Positions 39,303 to 48,531 of a DNA stretch of 64,000 bases are shown piece by piece. Made by a program: the position numbers and the translations under genes. The stretch lies in assembly GCA_021772135.1 (NCBI GenBank), contig JADYXQ010000185.1:1-64000 (forward strand), given 5' to 3'. Position 1 is the first letter of the stretch. The number at the start of each line of letters is the position of its first letter. The notes under the pieces were generated by a model that did not search any database, was not told where the DNA came from, and saw only the letters and a list, made by a program, of their open reading frames with translations. Source of the DNA: Candidatus Obscuribacter sp. (GTDB taxonomy: Bacteria; Cyanobacteriota; Vampirovibrionia; Obscuribacterales; Obscuribacteraceae).

Positions 39303-40151
39303 TCATAATTTTAGAATTGTCTCCAGGCCTATTTTCAGTTCTGAAAGATTGATTACCGCTTTAACAGAAAGAGCTATGCCTTTGAGAAAACAATTGGTGT
39401 TGAAGCTGTCGTGACGAATTGTCAAAAGCTCACCGTCACTGCCGAAGATAACGTCTTGATGAGAGATCAGCCCTGGCAATCGCAAAGAATGCACCCTTAC
39501 TCCTGAGCTGTGTTCAGCGCCCCTGGCATGAGGCAAGAGCTCGTGCTCTTTGATTTCATTAACATTGAATTTTTTGTTGTTGGCGCCCATTTTACTCAAG
39601 GTGTGCATGGCGGTGCCTGATGGAGCATCGACTTTTTTAGTGTGATGCATCTCGACAATTTCGGCATTACCGTAAAATTTACTTGCCTGCCTGGCAAATT
39701 CCATCATTAAAACCGCACCGATAGAGAAGTTCGGTATTATCATGGCACCAAGATTTTTCTCGGAAGCCAGCACGGCTAATTGCTGAATTTGATCTTTACT
39801 GAGACCGGAGGTGCCAATAACTGGTCTTATGCCGTTTTCCAATGCCATCTTAGCGCACTCAAAAGAGGCGTCTGCCACCATAAAATCGAGAATGACGTCT
39901 GGTTTGCCCAACTCCAGCATCGACTCAAAAGACTGGCAGACAGGCAATCCGACATGACTGTTATCAGCAGTAACATCGGTCAGCTCACTGACGTCACAGC
40001 CAATATATTTGGCACCGGCTCTCCCGAACGCACCTACCAGCTCAAAGGCACCATCGGTTAAGATCGGCGTTAAACTGGCACGACCCATGCGGCCGTTAAC
40101 CCCGGCTATGGCTACTTTAATGCGCTCCGTCATGCGATTAATTTCTTGCAT
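39303..40151 (-). CDS. dapB: 4-hydroxy-tetrahydrodipicolinate reductase (DapB)
   Basis: NAD(P)H-dependent second enzyme of the diaminopimelate branch. 282 residues. The dinucleotide motif AIAGVNGRMGRA is at the N-terminus; GTSGLSKDQ, NFSIGAVLMMEFA and the signature MHHTKKVDAPSGTAM follow. The start may be this ATG or one six codons later (40133), which sits closer to the family N-terminus. It follows dut by 18 nt. Confidence 0.95.
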   Translation of the reverse strand: MQEINRMTERIKVAIAGVNGRMGRASLTPILTDGAFELVGAFGRAGAKYIGCDVSELTDVTADNSHVGLPVCQSFESMLELGKPDVILDFMVADASFECAKMALENGIRPVIGTSGLSKDQIQQLAVLASEKNLGAMIIPNFSIGAVLMMEFARQASKFYGNAEIVEMHHTKKVDAPSGTAMHTLSKMGANNKKFNVNEIKEHELLPHARGAEHSSGVRVHSLRLPGLISHQDVIFGSDGELLTIRHDSFNTNCFLKGIALSVKAVINLSELKIGLETILKL

Positions 40152-40169: not shown

Positions 40170-40649
40170 TTAGGTCAGCCGACCGGTAGAGCCGAATCCG
40201 CCGGCACCGCGCTCAGCACTATCGGTTAATTCCTCAACCTCTAAAATTTCTACCCGTGGCACCGGAGTAATCAAAAGCTGAGCTATTCTTTCGCCTGGTT
40301 CAAAAGTGTAGGCTTTGTCGCCGTGATTAATAACGAGCACTTGCACTTCGCCGCGATAGTCACTGTCTATGGTGCCGACACAATTAGTCAGACTGATACC
40401 GGCTTTGTCTGCCAGACCTGACCGTGGTCTGACTTGACCTTCATAACCAGGTGGAATTTCAACAATGATGCCGATAGGAATGCGGCAACGTTCGCCTGGC
40501 TGCAGAATAACCGCCTCGACCAGAGCATTGGTCAAATCGAGACCAGCAGAGCCGGCAGTAGCGTATTTGGGCAATGCTTTGCAGTGCGGCAAACGCTTAA
40601 CTTTCAGGGTGACAGTGCCGGTTTTTTCTTCGGTTACGGTTGCTGACAT
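40170..40649 (-). CDS. dut: Deoxyuridine 5'-triphosphate nucleotidohydrolase (dUTPase)
   Basis: Hydrolyses dUTP to dUMP, preventing uracil incorporation into DNA. 159 residues with all five trimeric dUTPase motifs in order: GSAGLDL, RPRSGLADKAGI, NCVGTIDSDYRGE with the catalytic Asp, FEPGERIAQLLI and the C-terminal RGAGGFGSTGR. It lies between the M16 peptidase gene (32 nt) and dapB (18 nt). Confidence 0.96.
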   Translation of the reverse strand: MSATVTEEKTGTVTLKVKRLPHCKALPKYATAGSAGLDLTNALVEAVILQPGERCRIPIGIIVEIPPGYEGQVRPRSGLADKAGISLTNCVGTIDSDYRGEVQVLVINHGDKAYTFEPGERIAQLLITPVPRVEILEVEELTDSAERGAGGFGSTGRLT

Positions 40650-40681
40650 AATTTCTCCAATAAAATGAGACTCAAGTGAAT

Positions 40682-41935
40682 TTAAGTGAGATTTAACTGA
40701 TAGCTTTCTGCTAGTTCTTCTTTCGGCCCAACCACCACAAGCGAGAGTGATTCTTTGTTGAAGAGGAAATTAGCAAGCTCCATAACCGCTTCATTAGTCA
40801 CACCTTCAATGTCGGAGCGTGACTCTTCTAGAGGCACGATGCGATTGTAATGCATCAAATCAGAGGCATTGTTGGTGCTTCTGGCACTCATTGATTCTAA
40901 GTCCATGAGCAGATCGCTGCGCAGTTGAGTTTTGGCGCGTTTAATTTCAGTGGCAGTAAAACCTTCCGTTTTTACTCGCTCCAACTCCAGTACAATCAGC
41001 TCTAAAACAGTTGCAGTGTTCTCTGGAGTCATGGCGGCGTAAATAGCAAACTGACCGCAATTGCGGTAGCAATGCTGCATGCTGGCCACGGTGTAAACCA
41101 GCCCGCGCCGCTCGCGAATTTCTCTAAACAAACGTGAAGACGCGGAAGCAGCCAGGTTTAAATCGAGCACTTGCATGGCGTCAATGCGTTTGTCGCTGTG
41201 ACTTAAGCTGGGTAAAGTGAGCATCAACTGTGCCTGCTCAATACCTTTGTCACGCACAATATTAAAAACACGAGGCTGAGGCGTGGGCGGTTTAGGCCCC
41301 TGACCGGGAGACAACTTACCGAGCTCGGCTGACAGCCAGGCGATAGTGGCTTCTTCGTCAAAGTTGCCGGCGATAGATATAACCATGCGCTCAGGGCGAT
41401 AAAAGCGCTGATAATGCTCATAAATCATTTGTTGATTGATACCATGGACAGTATCAACGGTGCCGATGATCGGATAGCTGTGGGCGTAGCCTTTCCACAA
41501 ATTCAGATATGCCAGCTCTTGGGCTACATCGGCCGAATCGTCTTCATACATCTGCATTTCGTCGAGAATTACTTGTTTCTCGAGGGTGAGATCCATGACG
41601 TCGAACCTTGGCGAGGTCACCATGTCGATCATGATATCGAGGGCCACAGGCAAATGTTCACCGAGTACGTGACCATAAATTTTGGTCAACTCTTTTGAAG
41701 TAGAGGCACCAAGCATGCCGCCCACATCTTCAATATCTTCGGCAATTTGCTCAGCCGAGCGCTTTTCACTGCCCTTAAACAACATATGCTCAATACAATG
41801 GGAGACGCCATTGTTCAAAGCCGTTTCGTAGGCAGAGCCAACTTCTATCCAGAGGTCAATGGCAGCCGAATAAACCGACTCCACGACCTCGGTCACTATT
41901 CTTGCCCCGTTTGGGAGCGTGGTAGTCCGAATCAT
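40682..41935 (-). CDS. M16-family zinc peptidase (YmxG/PqqL-like)
   Basis: 417 residues, single M16 peptidase half-unit pair. The inverted zinc motif is His46-Cys-Ile-Glu49-His50 (VSHCIEHMLFKGS), with the third ligand Glu126 in VILDEMQMYEDD. ERRGLVYTV and the C-terminal RSDIEGVTNE region match processing-peptidase-like proteins. Related genes next to dapA occur in Bacillus (ymxG/mlpA). Head of the M16-dut-dapB-dapA-rnj-mnmH unit, 41 nt downstream of a TPR gene. Its 5' end is duplicated at 42828-43190. Confidence 0.93.
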   Translation of the reverse strand: MIRTTTLPNGARIVTEVVESVYSAAIDLWIEVGSAYETALNNGVSHCIEHMLFKGSEKRSAEQIAEDIEDVGGMLGASTSKELTKIYGHVLGEHLPVALDIMIDMVTSPRFDVMDLTLEKQVILDEMQMYEDDSADVAQELAYLNLWKGYAHSYPIIGTVDTVHGINQQMIYEHYQRFYRPERMVISIAGNFDEEATIAWLSAELGKLSPGQGPKPPTPQPRVFNIVRDKGIEQAQLMLTLPSLSHSDKRIDAMQVLDLNLAASASSRLFREIRERRGLVYTVASMQHCYRNCGQFAIYAAMTPENTATVLELIVLELERVKTEGFTATEIKRAKTQLRSDLLMDLESMSARSTNNASDLMHYNRIVPLEESRSDIEGVTNEAVMELANFLFNKESLSLVVVGPKEELAESYQLNLT

Positions 41936-41976
41936 CGTGTTTGCATGAAGGAAAGGACCATTCTAGCATTTATTGG

Positions 41977-42798
41977 CTAATTGCCTGAAAAATGCTTCTC
42001 TTTGGTGCGAAAAGGGCTTTCGTTGAAAATTTCTCTTTCAATTTTGCCGATGGCGGCCCTGTCCTGCTCTGCCAGAACGGTTTTGTGAAGCTTCTCAAAA
42101 CACTTGGCTCGGCGGGCTAAATAATCAATGAGATGATTGCATTCGGAGTAGACAGCGCGGCTCTCCCTGTCGATTCTAGCCATTATCGCGGTCTGATTCT
42201 TGACCAGATAGTTGTAATCAAGCAGAGCCTCCTGCGGCTGCCCAAGGGCTTCCAGTGCCAGTGCACGGTGTTTCCGCCCATCATTGACCTTGCCGGAAAG
42301 TATGATTTGTTCAGAATACTTAAGCGCTGCCTGGTGATCGCCTATGGCGCGCGAGCAATCTGATAGTTCAGTCAACAGGTAAGGAATGCCCATTTTGCGA
42401 GCGGCAATAAAACAAGGGATAGCCTCTTTGAATTGCTTTGTCACCTGATAGACCTTGCCTAGCTGGAGGTTGGCATTAACCACCACCGACGGTTTTTTAG
42501 AATGTAAGAGGTTCTTATAGTCAGCGATGCACTCCTGGATACGATTTTCGTGGTGGTAACATTCAGCACGCTCCATGCGTACCTGAGCGTTGGCAGGGTC
42601 GAGCAAAAGCGCTTCTGTGTATAGGGTAATGGCTTCGTCGTCGGCAAATGTCTTGCGGTGCAAACGGGCGGCGTCACGCAATTTTTGTACTTTTTGTACT
42701 TTTTGTGATTTATCAGAGCAATGTGCAGGGAGGCCGGCTAAGCCAATGATAGCTATACAAATTGCCACAATTCGCTGGCAGATTTTAGAGACAATCAT
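41977..42798 (-). CDS. Small exported TPR protein
   Basis: 273 residues with a hydrophobic N-terminus (about 6-25, then Ala-His-Cys) that could be a signal peptide. The following KVQKVQKLRDAARLHRKT is charged. TPR-like pairs run through about 45-200 (ADDEAITLYTEALLLDPANA, then AQVRMERAECYHHENRIQEC). It precedes the M16 gene in the same direction. Its last 85 bp and the spacer to the M16 gene are present again at about 43105-43190, as part of a partial duplication. Confidence 0.75.
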   Translation of the reverse strand: MIVSKICQRIVAICIAIIGLAGLPAHCSDKSQKVQKVQKLRDAARLHRKTFADDEAITLYTEALLLDPANAQVRMERAECYHHENRIQECIADYKNLLHSKKPSVVVNANLQLGKVYQVTKQFKEAIPCFIAARKMGIPYLLTELSDCSRAIGDHQAALKYSEQIILSGKVNDGRKHRALALEALGQPQEALLDYNYLVKNQTAIMARIDRESRAVYSECNHLIDYLARRAKCFEKLHKTVLAEQDRAAIGKIEREIFNESPFRTKEKHFSGN

Positions 42799-42827: not shown

Positions 42828-43190
42828 TTAACGATGACAGAGTTCATAAATCACTTGCCGCTTGATACCATACACAGTATCAAATTCCGAGCGCTTTTCG
42901 CTGCCTTTGAACAACATGTGCTCAATACAATGGGAGACGCCATTGTTCAAAGCCGTTTCGTAGGCTGAGCCAACTTCTATCCAGAGGTCAATGGCAGCCG
43001 AATAGACCAAATCCACGACCTCGGTCACTATTCTTGCCCCGTTAGGGAGAGTTGTGGTCCGAATCATCGCATTTGCATGAAGGAAAGAACTATTCTAGCA
43101 TTTATTGGCTATTTGCCTGAAAATGCTTCTCCTCTGTGCGAAAAGGGCCTTCGTTGAAATTTCTTTTTCAAATTTGCCGATGGCGACCCG
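42828..43190 (-). pseudogene. Decayed partial duplicate of the M16 peptidase/TPR junction
   Basis: 42887-43190 repeats 41755-42061 nearly base for base (small substitutions and 1 nt indels): the M16 start through HCIEHMLFKGSEKRS, the intergenic spacer, and the 3' end of the TPR gene. 42843-42884 repeats another, non-adjacent part of the M16 gene (around 41418-41457), so about 300 bp between the two blocks has been deleted. The junction keeps frame, leaving a 79-codon ORF (42828-43067) that contains the HCIEH motif but lacks the third ligand and most of the fold, so no activity is expected. Remnant of a tandem duplication. Confidence 0.85.
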
Positions 43191-43375
43191 TCACTGGCAA
43201 ATTAGGGCAATAATACTGAAGCGCAAGCGCCTAAAGAGCAACAGGGTGAGCATTGCAACAACTCTGGCATTGTAAAGTATTCAAGCAGAAACTCACTCCT
43301 AGAGGTGACCAATAACCTGGACACTTCAAGTTAATAAACCAGGCTTAATTGCAGCGTCTAATCACTTCAACTAAA

Positions 43376-44272
43376 ATGAGGTCTATAGGCCGCTTAATGC
43401 AGCGCTCACAGCCTGACTATGGAGCAGAGACCTTGCAAATTGCCCTGGGCATTGTTACTTATAATAATCAACACTATCAATTAGAGCAGTTGCTCAGTTC
43501 GATAGCCCTTTGCGCCAGAGAGCTTGGAGACAAAGTTGCACTTAAATGTCTTGTGGTAGACAACGGTGCCGATAGTAGTGACCTCTTTGAGCACAAAAAG
43601 TATCCAGATTTTTCCATTCAACATCTGACTAGCCAAGGAAATGTTGGATTTGGCGCCGGAATGAACCGGCTGATGGATGTCGCATTTAGAGAATTAAATT
43701 GCCACCACTTTATTTGCGTTAATCCAGATGGCGTCTTTCATCGAAAAGCAATATTGCGGATGTTGCATATGCAAAATAGCTTTGCTTCATGTTTGCTTGA
43801 GGCAAAACAGTTTCCAGAAGAACACCCTAAGCAATATGACCCTGAAAATTTTGACTCACCTTGGTTGAGCGGTGCTTGCCTGATGATTCCGGCAGAGATT
43901 TATAAAAGCATTGGCGGCTTTGATGATCGGTTCTTTATGTACATGGAAGATGTTGATCTCTCCTGGAGAGCGCGCTGCGCCGGATTCAAAACGAAAATTT
44001 GTACAGACGCGTATTTTGGCCATCAAGTTCTAGGCCGAGATTTCTCTGCCAGAACTGAAAAAACCATATTCATTTCTGCCCGTGCACTAGCCGCTAAGTG
44101 GCATGAAGAACCATTTCGGCTCTGGTGCGAAGAACAATTAACTGAGCGAAAATTGGTCGAAAAGGTCGAAGCAATTCCAGCACTCCTGAATAATTTTGAA
44201 TTACCGTCGAATGCAAAAAGCGTGGTTGATTTTGAGCATTACTTTACTTTCTCTCAGGCGCGGTGGGAGTGA
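43376..44272 (+). CDS. Family 2 glycosyltransferase (rhamnosyltransferase-like)
   Basis: About 298 residues. GT2 signatures: LGIVTYNNQHYQLEQLL at the N-terminus, VVDNGADSSD, GNVGFGAGMN, NPDG, and the acceptor-side block LSGACLMIPAEIYKSIGGFD with FFMYMEDVDLSWRAR. This profile is typical of O-antigen/rhamnan transferases. The start is uncertain: ATG at 43376 is chosen, with TTG 43349 and ATG 43397 as alternatives and no good ribosome site at any. First of three plus-strand glycan genes. Confidence 0.85.
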   Translation: MRSIGRLMQRSQPDYGAETLQIALGIVTYNNQHYQLEQLLSSIALCARELGDKVALKCLVVDNGADSSDLFEHKKYPDFSIQHLTSQGNVGFGAGMNRLMDVAFRELNCHHFICVNPDGVFHRKAILRMLHMQNSFASCLLEAKQFPEEHPKQYDPENFDSPWLSGACLMIPAEIYKSIGGFDDRFFMYMEDVDLSWRARCAGFKTKICTDAYFGHQVLGRDFSARTEKTIFISARALAAKWHEEPFRLWCEEQLTERKLVEKVEAIPALLNNFELPSNAKSVVDFEHYFTFSQARWE

Positions 44273-45309
44273 TGAACGGGAATCGCATTTCGGTAGTGAT
44301 CCGCTTTCATAGTCTCGCGGCTCTGGAACAACTTGAACAGTGCCTTTTTTCAGTATGTTTGCAAAATACTGAAGATATAGAAATAATCGTGGTTGTGAAA
44401 AACTTCGATCAGGCGCAAAAATCTATTGTCGAAGAAGTGTGCCTCGGCCAACCCTGGCTCTTCGCGCCCATAGTTAAAATTGTAGACTGTAACGCGACTG
44501 ACGACCACGACACGCGCGCCGAGGCTCTTAACGTTGGCATAACATCTGCATCTGGCCGCTACATAGCCTTTCTTGATTACGATGACGTGCTCTATCATCA
44601 GTGTTATGAAACTCTGAAGAAACTTTTGCAAGAGTCAAAAGCAATATTGTCTTTCGGTAGAACGAGACTAGCTGTGATGGAAACAATAGGAGACAAGCCA
44701 TACGTTATCTCCAAAAAGAAATGGTTTTTCTGGGGCGACAGCCGGCGTGATTTATGGAAAGGAAATTTCATTGTCATACACTCTTACATGATTGATAAAG
44801 AGCGCCTGCCGATACCACTTTTGGTCGACACAACTTTCACCCGTCTGGAAGATTATGCGCTGCTTCTAAGACTTTCGGTCGAGGGAGATTTTGCCAAGAC
44901 TGAAGACGCCGTATGTGAGTATAGAATTCCGCTAGGACACGAACTGGCTGAAGAAGCGTTTGGTTTTGATCGCAGCAGCGATTATGAGCAGAGTCACGAA
45001 AGCGTTATTTGGAATATGAATACAGATAAGCTCGCCACTTTACGTGAGAGCTTGCGAGTAAATATGTCACTGGAACAGTTCAGTGAACTTATGGATGAAC
45101 TGGCTGATTTAAAGAAAGAACGTAAGTGGCTCAAAGAACAACTAGAGCACTCTGAGCAGGTCTGGTCAAAGCATCTGGAAGAAGCTGAGCTTTTGAGTTT
45201 CAGGCTTCTTCGCAGCGGGCACGCGGCTGTATCTAAGCCCGGTTTGCTTAAAGAGACAGTAAAGACCGTTCGTACTTTTAGAAAACTCTTTAAGCCACGA
45301 AATAAATAA
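44272..45309 (+). CDS. Family 2 glycosyltransferase with C-terminal coiled coil
   Basis: 345 residues. The N-terminal GT2 domain (ISVVIRFHSLAALEQLEQCL, EIIVVVKNF, ALNVGITSASGRYIAFLDYDD with the metal-binding DYDD, and later RLEDYALLLRLS) is followed by a coiled coil at about 268-310 (MDELADLKKERKWLKEQLEH) and a basic tail. The ATG overlaps the preceding stop (TGATG), so translation is coupled to the upstream transferase. Donor and acceptor unknown. Confidence 0.82.
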   Translation: MNGNRISVVIRFHSLAALEQLEQCLFSVCLQNTEDIEIIVVVKNFDQAQKSIVEEVCLGQPWLFAPIVKIVDCNATDDHDTRAEALNVGITSASGRYIAFLDYDDVLYHQCYETLKKLLQESKAILSFGRTRLAVMETIGDKPYVISKKKWFFWGDSRRDLWKGNFIVIHSYMIDKERLPIPLLVDTTFTRLEDYALLLRLSVEGDFAKTEDAVCEYRIPLGHELAEEAFGFDRSSDYEQSHESVIWNMNTDKLATLRESLRVNMSLEQFSELMDELADLKKERKWLKEQLEHSEQVWSKHLEEAELLSFRLLRSGHAAVSKPGLLKETVKTVRTFRKLFKPRNK

Positions 45310-45339
45310 GAGCACTGAGGAACTGAGAGCGATGTGCAA

Positions 45340-46305
45340 ATGAGTGCGGAGAAAGCTTGCCTTATCATTCACTTAGAAAGCGATCTCACGCCAGCCCTGG
45401 TGGACGTGGTAAATAATCTACTGGCTGAAAAAACGAATGTTTTTGCCATGGTGCGCGACTTTAGTACTGCCTCAAAGTGGCTGTCAGAGCGAGAAATTTA
45501 TTCATTTCTTCTGCCAGAATTTCTAAATACCAATGAACATGGCAGCAAAACTTTGTTTGCCGATTATAAGCAATTTTTTGCAGCGATATCTTATTTTGCG
45601 GACTACAACTTTGATCAAGTCTTGCTTGGTAAACAGCCTCATTTCAGCGAGCTAGCGACAAAGGCGATTGCCGCCACCTGCCCCCGCTTGGAAGAATTGG
45701 ACTACGGAGATTACCTTTGTTTCAAGAGGCTCAAAAAAAAGCAACTGAGTACAATGCAAAGGTCTATGACCGCCGCCCAGTTTTCGCTGGCAAGAGCTCG
45801 AGCAGGCTCGCTGCAAAAATGCTATCTATTCCTGAAAGTATTCGTAGAGGCGATTGTATGTTTCTGCCTGCTTATACTATTCCTCCCGGTTCTGATTATT
45901 CTCTCCGCGTTTAATGTCGCTAGAGTATCACCGCGAGCTATTTTAGGTAAGTCAAATAGAGTTCGTTTCGTCAATATTTTTGATAAAAAAGATTCTCACG
46001 ATGATGCAGATTTGCCCCGCTGGTGGTGGCTACCGACTCTCTGGAATGTTTGCAAAGGTGACGTCGCCCTGATTGGCCCACGTCTGGTCCTGCTTGCCGC
46101 AGATCCAAGCGCAAATATTTCCAATTATTCCAATTTATACTTTCAACTTGCGCCAGGCCTAATAAGCCGCTCTCAACTAAAGGCCGGCAAAGGCTACAGC
46201 CCAGAGCAGTTAGATGAACTCGATCAGGCATATATGCATGACTGCAACCCAATTTTGGATTTCAAAATTTTGCTTCTGGCGGCAAGCAGCATTCTAAGAA
46301 TTTAG
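45340..46305 (+). CDS. Divergent membrane sugar transferase (initiating glycosyltransferase-like)
   Basis: 321 residues. The N-terminal 150 residues have no recognised domain. One long hydrophobic segment at about 164-190 (VEAIVCFCLLILFLPVLII) is followed by a bacterial sugar transferase-like catalytic region: LPTLWNVCKGDVALIGPRLV and FQLAPGLISRSQLKAGKGY. These match the W-N-(V)-x-K-G-D-(M)-S-L-(V)-G-P-R and PG-(I)-(T) blocks of WcaJ/PglC enzymes, which load a sugar phosphate on undecaprenyl phosphate. The usual KFRSM block and the Arg before the PG motif were not found, so activity is uncertain. ATG 45340 preferred over GTG 45334. Overlaps the converging GT4 gene by 4 nt. Confidence 0.72.
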   Translation: MSAEKACLIIHLESDLTPALVDVVNNLLAEKTNVFAMVRDFSTASKWLSEREIYSFLLPEFLNTNEHGSKTLFADYKQFFAAISYFADYNFDQVLLGKQPHFSELATKAIAATCPRLEELDYGDYLCFKRLKKKQLSTMQRSMTAAQFSLARARAGSLQKCYLFLKVFVEAIVCFCLLILFLPVLIILSAFNVARVSPRAILGKSNRVRFVNIFDKKDSHDDADLPRWWWLPTLWNVCKGDVALIGPRLVLLAADPSANISNYSNLYFQLAPGLISRSQLKAGKGYSPEQLDELDQAYMHDCNPILDFKILLLAASSILRI

Positions 46306-47831
46306 CTCTCGACCTTAAAGACTCCACGCAATATCTTGCGCTTGGCCTTACCGGCCACTCCTCTAATTTGCGCGGTCAAAGTTGGTTCTAACACTGGCGG
46401 CGGGGCGTTCTTCACGCCAGCGTCATAACCTCGTTGATATGCATCTGAATAGGCGGCCCTAATAGCGGCATCATAGCCACGATCAAAACCTGCGGCAATC
46501 CATGGCACAGCCTTTTTCAAGACAAATTCTTCGCCGTCACCGGCAAGAGAATCACCAAGGCATTTTGCCACCAAAGCAAAGCCGTAATGATTTTCCCTGC
46601 GCTGGGCAAATTTTGCCCGCGCTTGCTCGTAGACATTCAGGCTCAGGACATAATTGGTCTCTAGACTACAGACTTCTTGAAGATTTTCTAAACCGCGCTG
46701 CGAAAGTTTTTCCCTCAGTGCTTGATCTGAGGCGAGCTTCACAATACCGTCTGCCAGTGCCTTTGGAGAATTCGTTTCGACAAGCACAACCGTTTCATCT
46801 TCGATCTGATATTCAGGCAGACCGCCCACTCTTGTAGCAACGCAACAAGCTCCACAACTTTGGGCCTCTAAAAGGCTGTAGCATGCCGTTTCATACCTAG
46901 ATGGAAATACGCATATATCAGTCTCTACGATAAGTTTCTGAATGTCGGTGCGTGAGAGAAAACCGGCAAAACTTACCTTGTCAGCAATACCCAATTGCTC
47001 TACTCTTTTCTTCAAGAGTTGGCCCTGTGAGGTGAAAGCACCATACTCGGTGCAATCATTACCACCAATGATGATTTGCGCAGAAGGAAATTTTGCCAGG
47101 ACTACCGGCAATGACTCAATGAGCGTGTCGGTGCCCTTCTGACGCTGAACCCGGCCCCAGAAGAATATTTTTGGATACTCAGCGCCGGCCACAAATGATG
47201 TTTTCAGGGGAGAGTCAGTGGGTGTGACAAAAGAAGTGCGTATGACATGAAAGTCGTCAATCGGTCTGCCGCTCAACTTATGCATGCGTGCAGCCAGCTC
47301 TTGACAAATAACTATAGCCGCATCAGCCTCAGCTACAGGGGCGAGTTCAAGAGCTTCGATCAGAGCAGTGTCTGAACTATTGTAATTACCAATGTCGTTG
47401 CCTTTAATAAGCTGCGAGAGTGAGCCGTAACAGCGCACTACAAAAGGATACTTCCCTTCAGCGGAAAAGAAAAATCCCAACCCGTTGAATTCCTGGCACT
47501 CTACGACATCTGGGTTGAAGTCGGACAGTACCTTTTTCGAACCTTCAAAAAGGTCTTTCGCTCTCGCAACGTGACGATTATAGTTTTCTACCGCAGGCAG
47601 CCCGGTAAAAGCTTGATAGCGGTCAAACTCTATACGTTTGCGAAAGACTTTGATGCCGGCCACATCAATCATGTCAGTGACGCAATCAGTTTTTGTTTCA
47701 GGGTGCACCGTGATTACAAGAACCTCATGCCCAGCTTCTTTCAAGCGCAGGGCAAAATACCAGGTGGCAGGAAAGCCTGGCTCTTCGTCTATTGAAGATG
47801 GAAAAGTGCCGACGACCAGAGCAATGCGCAT
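46302..47831 (-). CDS. Family 4 glycosyltransferase with repeat-like C-terminal extension
   Basis: About 509 residues from the ATG ending at 47831 (MRIALVVGTFPSS). An in-frame start 14 codons earlier is less family-like. GT-B fold: the N-terminal domain has ATWYFALRLKEAGHEVLVITVHPE; the donor domain has FFWGRVQRQKGTDTLIESL, FPSRYETACYSLLEAQSCG with the E-x7-E motif, and ATRVGGLPE. After about residue 400 there is an unusual tail with G-(F/Y)-D-R/A repeats (AGFDRGYDAAIRAAYSDAYQ, RGYDAGVKN) and a basic end. A structured RNA with a terminator lies upstream on the same strand. Confidence 0.87.
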   Translation of the reverse strand: MRIALVVGTFPSSIDEEPGFPATWYFALRLKEAGHEVLVITVHPETKTDCVTDMIDVAGIKVFRKRIEFDRYQAFTGLPAVENYNRHVARAKDLFEGSKKVLSDFNPDVVECQEFNGLGFFFSAEGKYPFVVRCYGSLSQLIKGNDIGNYNSSDTALIEALELAPVAEADAAIVICQELAARMHKLSGRPIDDFHVIRTSFVTPTDSPLKTSFVAGAEYPKIFFWGRVQRQKGTDTLIESLPVVLAKFPSAQIIIGGNDCTEYGAFTSQGQLLKKRVEQLGIADKVSFAGFLSRTDIQKLIVETDICVFPSRYETACYSLLEAQSCGACCVATRVGGLPEYQIEDETVVLVETNSPKALADGIVKLASDQALREKLSQRGLENLQEVCSLETNYVLSLNVYEQARAKFAQRRENHYGFALVAKCLGDSLAGDGEEFVLKKAVPWIAAGFDRGYDAAIRAAYSDAYQRGYDAGVKNAPPPVLEPTLTAQIRGVAGKAKRKILRGVFKVES

Positions 47832-47980
47832 CTTATCAATTACCTGATGATACCTGCTGAACAAAACCTGCAAGATTCAGTGCGAGACACATTCTAACAT
47901 TTAATGGGTCTTACCTGGAATCGGGTAAACAAGACTACGCGCTCGCGTATTCCTTGACAAAGTCACAGATCTTTGTATAA

Positions 47981-48010
47981 CAAAAAACCGCCCGAACCAG
48001 TCGCGGCGGC
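47981..48010 (-). terminator. Rho-independent terminator of the structured RNA
   Basis: On the minus strand CCGCC (48005-48009) pairs with GGCGG (47988-47992), loop of 12 nt with possible further C-G pairs, followed by TTTTTT (47982-47987). No T-run on the plus-strand side, so it acts leftward. Confidence 0.7.
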
Positions 48011-48228
48011 GTTCTTGCTACTGCCTGACTGTCCGTTGCTGGACTCAGTATTTCACCGCGATTCAGTCAGTCCTTCACGCGATGCGGGCTCTCTGCTATG
48101 TTTCCGGAAGGCGCCTTCCTGATGTTTCTGCAGCACCCCTCGGCTTAATGTGACCACTTCGCTTAGTCACGCACCGTATACATTTAGAGTATCAAGGCGC
48201 CACAATCCGAGGAAGTACCCCGTTTTTC
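47981..48228 (-). ncRNA. Candidate structured RNA ending in a terminator
   Basis: No ORF, but dense inverted repeats. A three-way junction is closed by 48207-48212 with 48138-48143 (CCTCGG/CCGAGG) and holds 48196-48200 with 48171-48175 and 48166-48170 with 48150-48154. A second hairpin has a perfect GGAAGGCGCCTTCC palindrome (48106-48119) inside CTGC/GCAG (48093-48096 with 48130-48133). A third pairs 48064-48070 with 48025-48031, with an inner GTCC/GGAC. It ends at a terminator. The 5' end is approximate; TTGAAC (complement 48254-48259) is a possible -35. Either a free small RNA or an attenuator-type leader for the glycosyltransferase that begins 150 nt downstream. It matches no RNA class I know. 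Confidence 0.5.
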
Positions 48229-48422
48229 ATTTAAGCAAAGTAATTCTGCCGGGGTTCAAGTCGACCAGTAAAGCAGTGCAAGTTCTACTAAAGCCAAGAA
48301 TCGATTGAACTACACTGCCTTAGCCAATTACCGGCATCTTGACCGCTTCATTGGCCCAGCACGGGCTATGTTAAGGGTAAGCGGCGTCAATGAGCTAAAC
48401 TCTGGCTCCTGGTTCAGAAAGG

Positions 48423-48450
48423 TTTACAGGGGCTGCCAATCTCATATAAT
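48423..48450 (+). promoter_or_regulatory. Promoter of tRNA-Thr
   Basis: TTTACA at 48423-48428 (5 of 6), 16 bp spacer, TATAAT at 48445-48450 (perfect). Start of transcription would be near 48457, just at the tRNA 5' end. Confidence 0.7.
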
Positions 48451-48458
48451 GCTCATAT

Positions 48459-48531
<73 letters not shown>

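Follow-up and report, generated by a model that had tools for sequence, protein, structure and literature searches.

A structured RNA on the minus strand of the window (the whole stretch of DNA analysed, 64,000 nt from Candidatus Obscuribacter sp.) is almost certainly a member of the poplar-1 family, already catalogued as Rfam RF03041. It is very probably encoded by a stand-alone gene with a predicted transcript of its own, and the two statements taken jointly are also very likely to hold. At the family level the finding is an ordinary rediscovery; what is added concerns the boundaries of the gene, its fold, its range and its locus. The family is catalogued, with no function found for it in the literature searched, in which we found no paper naming poplar-1. 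Comparison of genomes places it in nearly every sampled genome of the Obscuribacterales and adds both ends of the complete gene, a pseudoknot supported by covariation and an ancestral locus; along with the range, these show where its transcript and its partner should be sought. It also removes a false lead, that of a riboswitch ahead of a glycosyltransferase gene.

The match to RF03041 covers 48149-48014 on the minus strand and the complete model (positions 1-141), with 126.2 bits (E 8.5e-28) against a curated gathering score of 110.5 bits; the consensus helices are formed in the alignment, with two non-standard positions marked. An earlier note on this DNA had described the RNA as belonging to no recognised class, which is wrong because the family is matched over all 141 positions; the covariance-model search that the note had itself proposed as a check thus took away the novelty of the class. 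Its more general statements held up: a structured RNA is present on the minus strand, as seen from the Rfam match and from covariation, and no open reading frame of at least 60 aa overlaps the stretch. The note had found no tmRNA, RNase P or SRP signatures, and the Rfam search of 47700-48500 at E values of up to 1 likewise returned poplar-1 and a tRNA and no other family; 6S RNA likewise had no match in this interval at that threshold. A 6S RNA candidate at G000:C169:4443-4651 (L042) scores 29.3 bits, under the gathering score of 46.4, so that this group may have a divergent 6S RNA.

When 63 copies from related genomes were aligned with their flanks, the gene was found to extend past the 141-nt Rfam model on both sides (Table 1). 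In nearly all copies a promoter element of the form GGGG(T/G)A(G/C)TT lies 29-30 bp upstream of TANNNT, and its GGGG is about 81-92% conserved per column. Judging from the -10 box, transcription would start at about 48179; a conserved CGGUGAG begins about a dozen nucleotides past the -10 box and is followed by the 5′ hairpin P0. At the other end, the minus-strand terminator hairpin pointed out in the earlier note is retained across the family, its stem 48009-48005/47992-47988 being 99.7% paired and followed by six U (47987-47982). Homology between paralogues within a genome ends at +38, which is the end of the U-run, and reaches upstream to about -170 in many pairs. Another upstream element, at about -138, has its best-match position between -135 and -139 in most of 62 copies and matches weakly in the window copy (9 of 14 positions); it is a possible regulator site. 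A perfect palindromic operator was considered there and rejected: the position is constant, but the palindrome is partial and the window copy weak. Sequence comparison shows these parts to make up one transcription unit: a promoter at fixed spacing, a 5′ hairpin, a poplar-1 body that a pseudoknot closes, and lastly an intrinsic terminator. Many genomes of the order carry duplicates of the entire unit.

Table 1. Features of the poplar-1 gene and its locus in the window
Feature	Position	Strand	Remarks
Upstream element GTTCAATCGATTCTTGG	48294..48310	-	Family form ~TGATCCGGCGCTTGTTAA; about -138 from GGTG of the RNA
Promoter element GGGGTACTT	48213..48221	-	29-30 bp from the -10 box, constant in nearly all copies
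-10 box TACTCT	48186..48191	-	Family form TANNNT
Complete poplar-1 transcript (predicted)	47982..48179	-	~198 nt, promoter to end of U-run
P0, 5′ hairpin	48150..48170	-	Outside the Rfam model; covariation in 4/5 pairs
Poplar-1 body	48014..48149	-	RF03041 model 1-141
P2 palindromic hairpin GGAAGGCGCCUUCC	48106..48119	-	Between two GAAAC stretches; two-sided changes in 5/5 pairs
Pseudoknot, 5′ strand	48065..48070	-	Pairs with 48030-48025
Pseudoknot, 3′ strand	48025..48030	-	Pairs with 48070-48065
Intrinsic terminator	47982..48009	-	5-bp stem and six U; two-sided changes in 4/5 pairs
tRNA-Thr(CGT)	48459..48531	+	Neighbour in divergent orientation; belongs to the conserved locus
M16 peptidase gene	40682..41962	-	Pfam; original downstream neighbour, adjoins poplar-1 in relatives
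dut	40170-40769		After M16
dapB	39303-40151		After dut

The folding energy is not unusual (z = -1.8 for 321 nt and -1.1 for the 198-nt transcript) and is weak as proof, and covariation was therefore used; it is the Rfam match and the covariation, not the energy, that place the structure beyond chance. Across 63 distinct copies, helices P0, P1, P1b, P2, P3, P4 and P4b, the pseudoknot and the terminator are paired in 97.3% of pair cells, with 95-100% of the pairs of P1-P4 kept. Compensatory, two-sided changes, which the earlier note had suggested looking for in related genomes, occur in 32 of 42 pairs. Two-sided cells number 405, versus 105 ± 12 after shuffling and no more than 53 in slid controls; relatedness is ignored by shuffling but not by sliding, and the observed number far exceeds either control. 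In a second set, which includes the other family of the order and whose alignment was fitted to the model, 98.7% of cells are paired and 25 of 36 pairs have two-sided changes. The helices P1-P4 are the same in Rfam and here. The Rfam model lacks P0, the terminator and the promoter, and the structure line printed for it lacks the pseudoknot, which is present in the alignment made here and changes there from UGACU/AGUCA to UGGCU/AGCCA, UAGCU/AGCUA and UAACU/AGUUA. This pseudoknot, 95.5% paired, is the long-range helix of the earlier note, as 48070-48065/48030-48025 on the minus strand.

Of the nested three-way junction proposed in that note, one arm remains, the hairpin 48170-48166/48154-48150 (minus strand), which is P0, with 90.5% of its cells paired. 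The arm 48138-48143/48207-48212 can form in one of 62 copies, namely the window's own, and the arm 48171-48175/48196-48200 in 17 of 62 even if a slide of 4 nt either way is allowed. Both lie in or against the promoter, and 48138-48135 in fact pairs with 48089-48086 (99.6% paired), so that a nested three-way junction of the described kind does not exist. The palindromic hairpin 48119-48106 (minus strand) with its GAAACAT stretch on each side, reported in the note as flanked by AAACAT, is kept at 98.4%. Its tetraloop is GCGC, GCGU or ACGU across the family and could pair with itself in 52 of 63 copies if G-U is allowed; a homodimer through this self-complementary P2 loop is left as a possibility, because such self-pairing largely follows from being a hairpin. 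Unpaired positions of the body are no less conserved than paired ones (43 of 67 versus 16 of 52 at 90% or more), and GGA motifs are present in the loops.

The window's own genome contains seven poplar-1 matches, six of them above the cut-off, and an eighth copy is truncated by the end of a contig. With the RF03041 model, matches were obtained in 47 of the 194 genomes of the class sample, the confident ones all in the window's own order, Obscuribacterales. The extended model R1, constructed for this analysis with 233 positions, matched 48 of the 53 sampled genomes of the order and gave no match in the other five; elsewhere in the class it found one marginal match (E 8e-4). RF03041 had no match in 385 other sampled genomes of the phylum, a sample drawn with stricter filters and containing few members of the window's order. 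Copy number ranges from 1 to 14 per genome (median 4), and copies are often clustered 0.5-2 kb apart and often located at contig ends. In a tree, the window copy and those found at the same locus in its genus form one group (support 100/99), from which the five other included copies of its own genome are separate.

In congeneric genomes, the copy with the greatest similarity to that of the window lies between a divergent tRNA-Thr(CGT) and the M16 gene, followed by dut and dapB, and the order tRNA-Thr(CGT)/poplar-1/(M16)/dut/dapB, with M16 optional, occurs in genomes of 10 genera. The window copy occupies this ancestral locus. The window has the tRNA-Thr at its usual position, but glycosyltransferase genes (43349-47873) and a TPR gene separate M16 from the RNA there. 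In one relative, G105, the RNA also adjoins this glycosyltransferase (76% identity), and among the genomes looked at a GT4 gene at the poplar-1 locus is common only to these two. The position of poplar-1 before the glycosyltransferase is on this evidence a later accident with no regulatory link, because the locus of relatives has M16, dut and dapB and the tree joins copies of the same locus. A few other features of the region were recorded. The block 43349-47873 consists of glycosyltransferase and sugar-transferase genes inside the otherwise conserved locus, and relatives of the neighbouring glycosyltransferase are found in Melainabacteria/Obscuribacterales MAGs. The start of the M16 gene is duplicated (41755-41991 and 42887-43123, 237 nt at 93% identity, plus 56 nt at 82%); a truncated M16 fragment (42828-43094) adjoins the glycosyltransferase genes and is separated from the intact M16 by the TPR gene. 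Directly before the tRNA-Thr(CGT), a near-consensus sigma-70 promoter is located at 48423-48450 on the plus strand (TTTACA-16 nt-TATAAT).

The earlier note had left the choice between a stand-alone small RNA and a riboswitch or attenuator leader, and of these the former has been retained. The RNA does lie about 140-150 nt upstream of the GT4 open reading frame on the same strand, with a terminator at its end, as a leader would. However, a leader should keep company with one kind of downstream gene, and here the neighbours differ: the seven full copies of the genome, and copies elsewhere, are followed by unrelated or opposite-strand genes, and similarity among paralogues stops at the terminator. 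At the ancestral locus itself, the glycosyltransferase adjoins the RNA only here and in G105, with M16 or dut in that place elsewhere; the RNA is therefore not the leader of that gene, the leader reading being highly improbable in our view. The likeliest reading, with about an even chance in our estimate, is that poplar-1 is a trans-acting sibling small RNA. Its transcript would be a free RNA of about 198 nt, and the copies would together act as sibling sRNAs with common control from upstream. The conserved unpaired UUUGAGCCGAG between P0 and P1 would be offered to a partner, either protein or RNA, as would the two conserved GGAAAC stretches on either side of P2. A somewhat less probable reading is that poplar-1 is the structural RNA in a particle of RNA and protein and has no regulatory role through base pairing, which would agree with its compact pseudoknotted fold, its highly conserved loops and its presence in nearly the whole order. 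Against this stand the copy number of 1-14, the local tandem expansion and the shared upstream element, which fit dosage-controlled regulation better than a particle, and no protein gene recurs beside all copies, the neighbouring protein families being shared merely as locus-wise orthologues. As to partners of a trans-acting RNA, the exact 11-nt complement of the linker (CTCGGCTCAAA) is found outside poplar-1 at about the level of chance, and a Yfr1-like partner carrying that exact complement was accordingly discarded. The sole CTCGGCTCAAA site common to two genomes of the genus (L106 and L121) lies within a self-complementary stretch, AUUUCUCGGCUCAAAUUGAACUAAGCCGGGGAAAU, which is conserved between the two and is covered by no Rfam match at gathering score.

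Cyanobacterial small RNAs share some of these habits; Cyano-1 (RF01701) is taken here to be Yfr2, on the basis of shared motifs. That poplar-1 is an enlarged homologue of Yfr2/Cyano-1 is very unlikely in our view. Yfr2 occurs in multiple copies at unconserved loci and has a GGAAACA repeat in its loop (PMC6778093, PMC1242208), and Yfr2-5/Cyano-1 and poplar-1 are both multi-copy stand-alone sRNAs with changing loci and their own promoter (PMC1242208; PMC6778093), to which GGAAAC stretches, perhaps a GGAAACA-type loop, and a GAGG-containing 5′ motif may be added. The poplar-1 model even gives two weak matches (16.6 bits) in one cyanobacterium on Cyano-1 genes, but these rest on the terminator and flank and skip the body, 24 other Cyano-1 loci yield no consistent match, and the extended model likewise reaches Cyano-1 genes by terminator and flank only. 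In the opposite direction, the Cyano-1 model has no match in the window's own genome at E values of up to 10, Cyano-1 is not among the matches up to the same E value at a poplar-1 copy, and its matches shown for the phylum sample are all outside the window's class. Homology is not supported, and there is no covariance-model link between the two. They also differ in build: Yfr2-5/Cyano-1 are about 90 nt long with one main hairpin and a 5′ GUGUGAGGAG motif (complementary to Yfr1), which is not present in poplar-1, where UUUGAGCCGAGGGGC is found in its place. As for the GGAAACA repeat in a loop, poplar-1 has two GGAAAC stretches, which flank a hairpin, and many Cyano-1 copies themselves lack the second repeat.

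A sponge for CsrA of the CsrB/RsmZ type, acting through several GGA motifs, would make use of the GGA motifs in the loops; it has next to no probability, as CsrA was not found in the window's own genome and turned up in the order in just two genomes, members of a single genus. The Qrr sRNAs of Vibrio quorum sensing are likewise encoded by several almost identical genes, each under a promoter of its own, and they act with Hfq. Poplar-1 resembles these siblings in habit, as separate multi-copy genes with their own promoter, and no Hfq was found in its genome; an Hfq-dependent sRNA was rejected on the same ground. Returning to the trans-acting sibling sRNA, we tentatively propose, as a rather unlikely extension of it, that poplar-1 serves all Obscuribacterales as their core regulatory RNA, much as Yfr2 serves their cyanobacterial sister group. 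It would have a single fixed ancestral gene by tRNA-Thr/dut and lineage-specific expansions under a shared operator, and would act without Hfq or CsrA. An Hfq-like protein does occur in two genera of the class sample, and only there, both belonging to the window's family.
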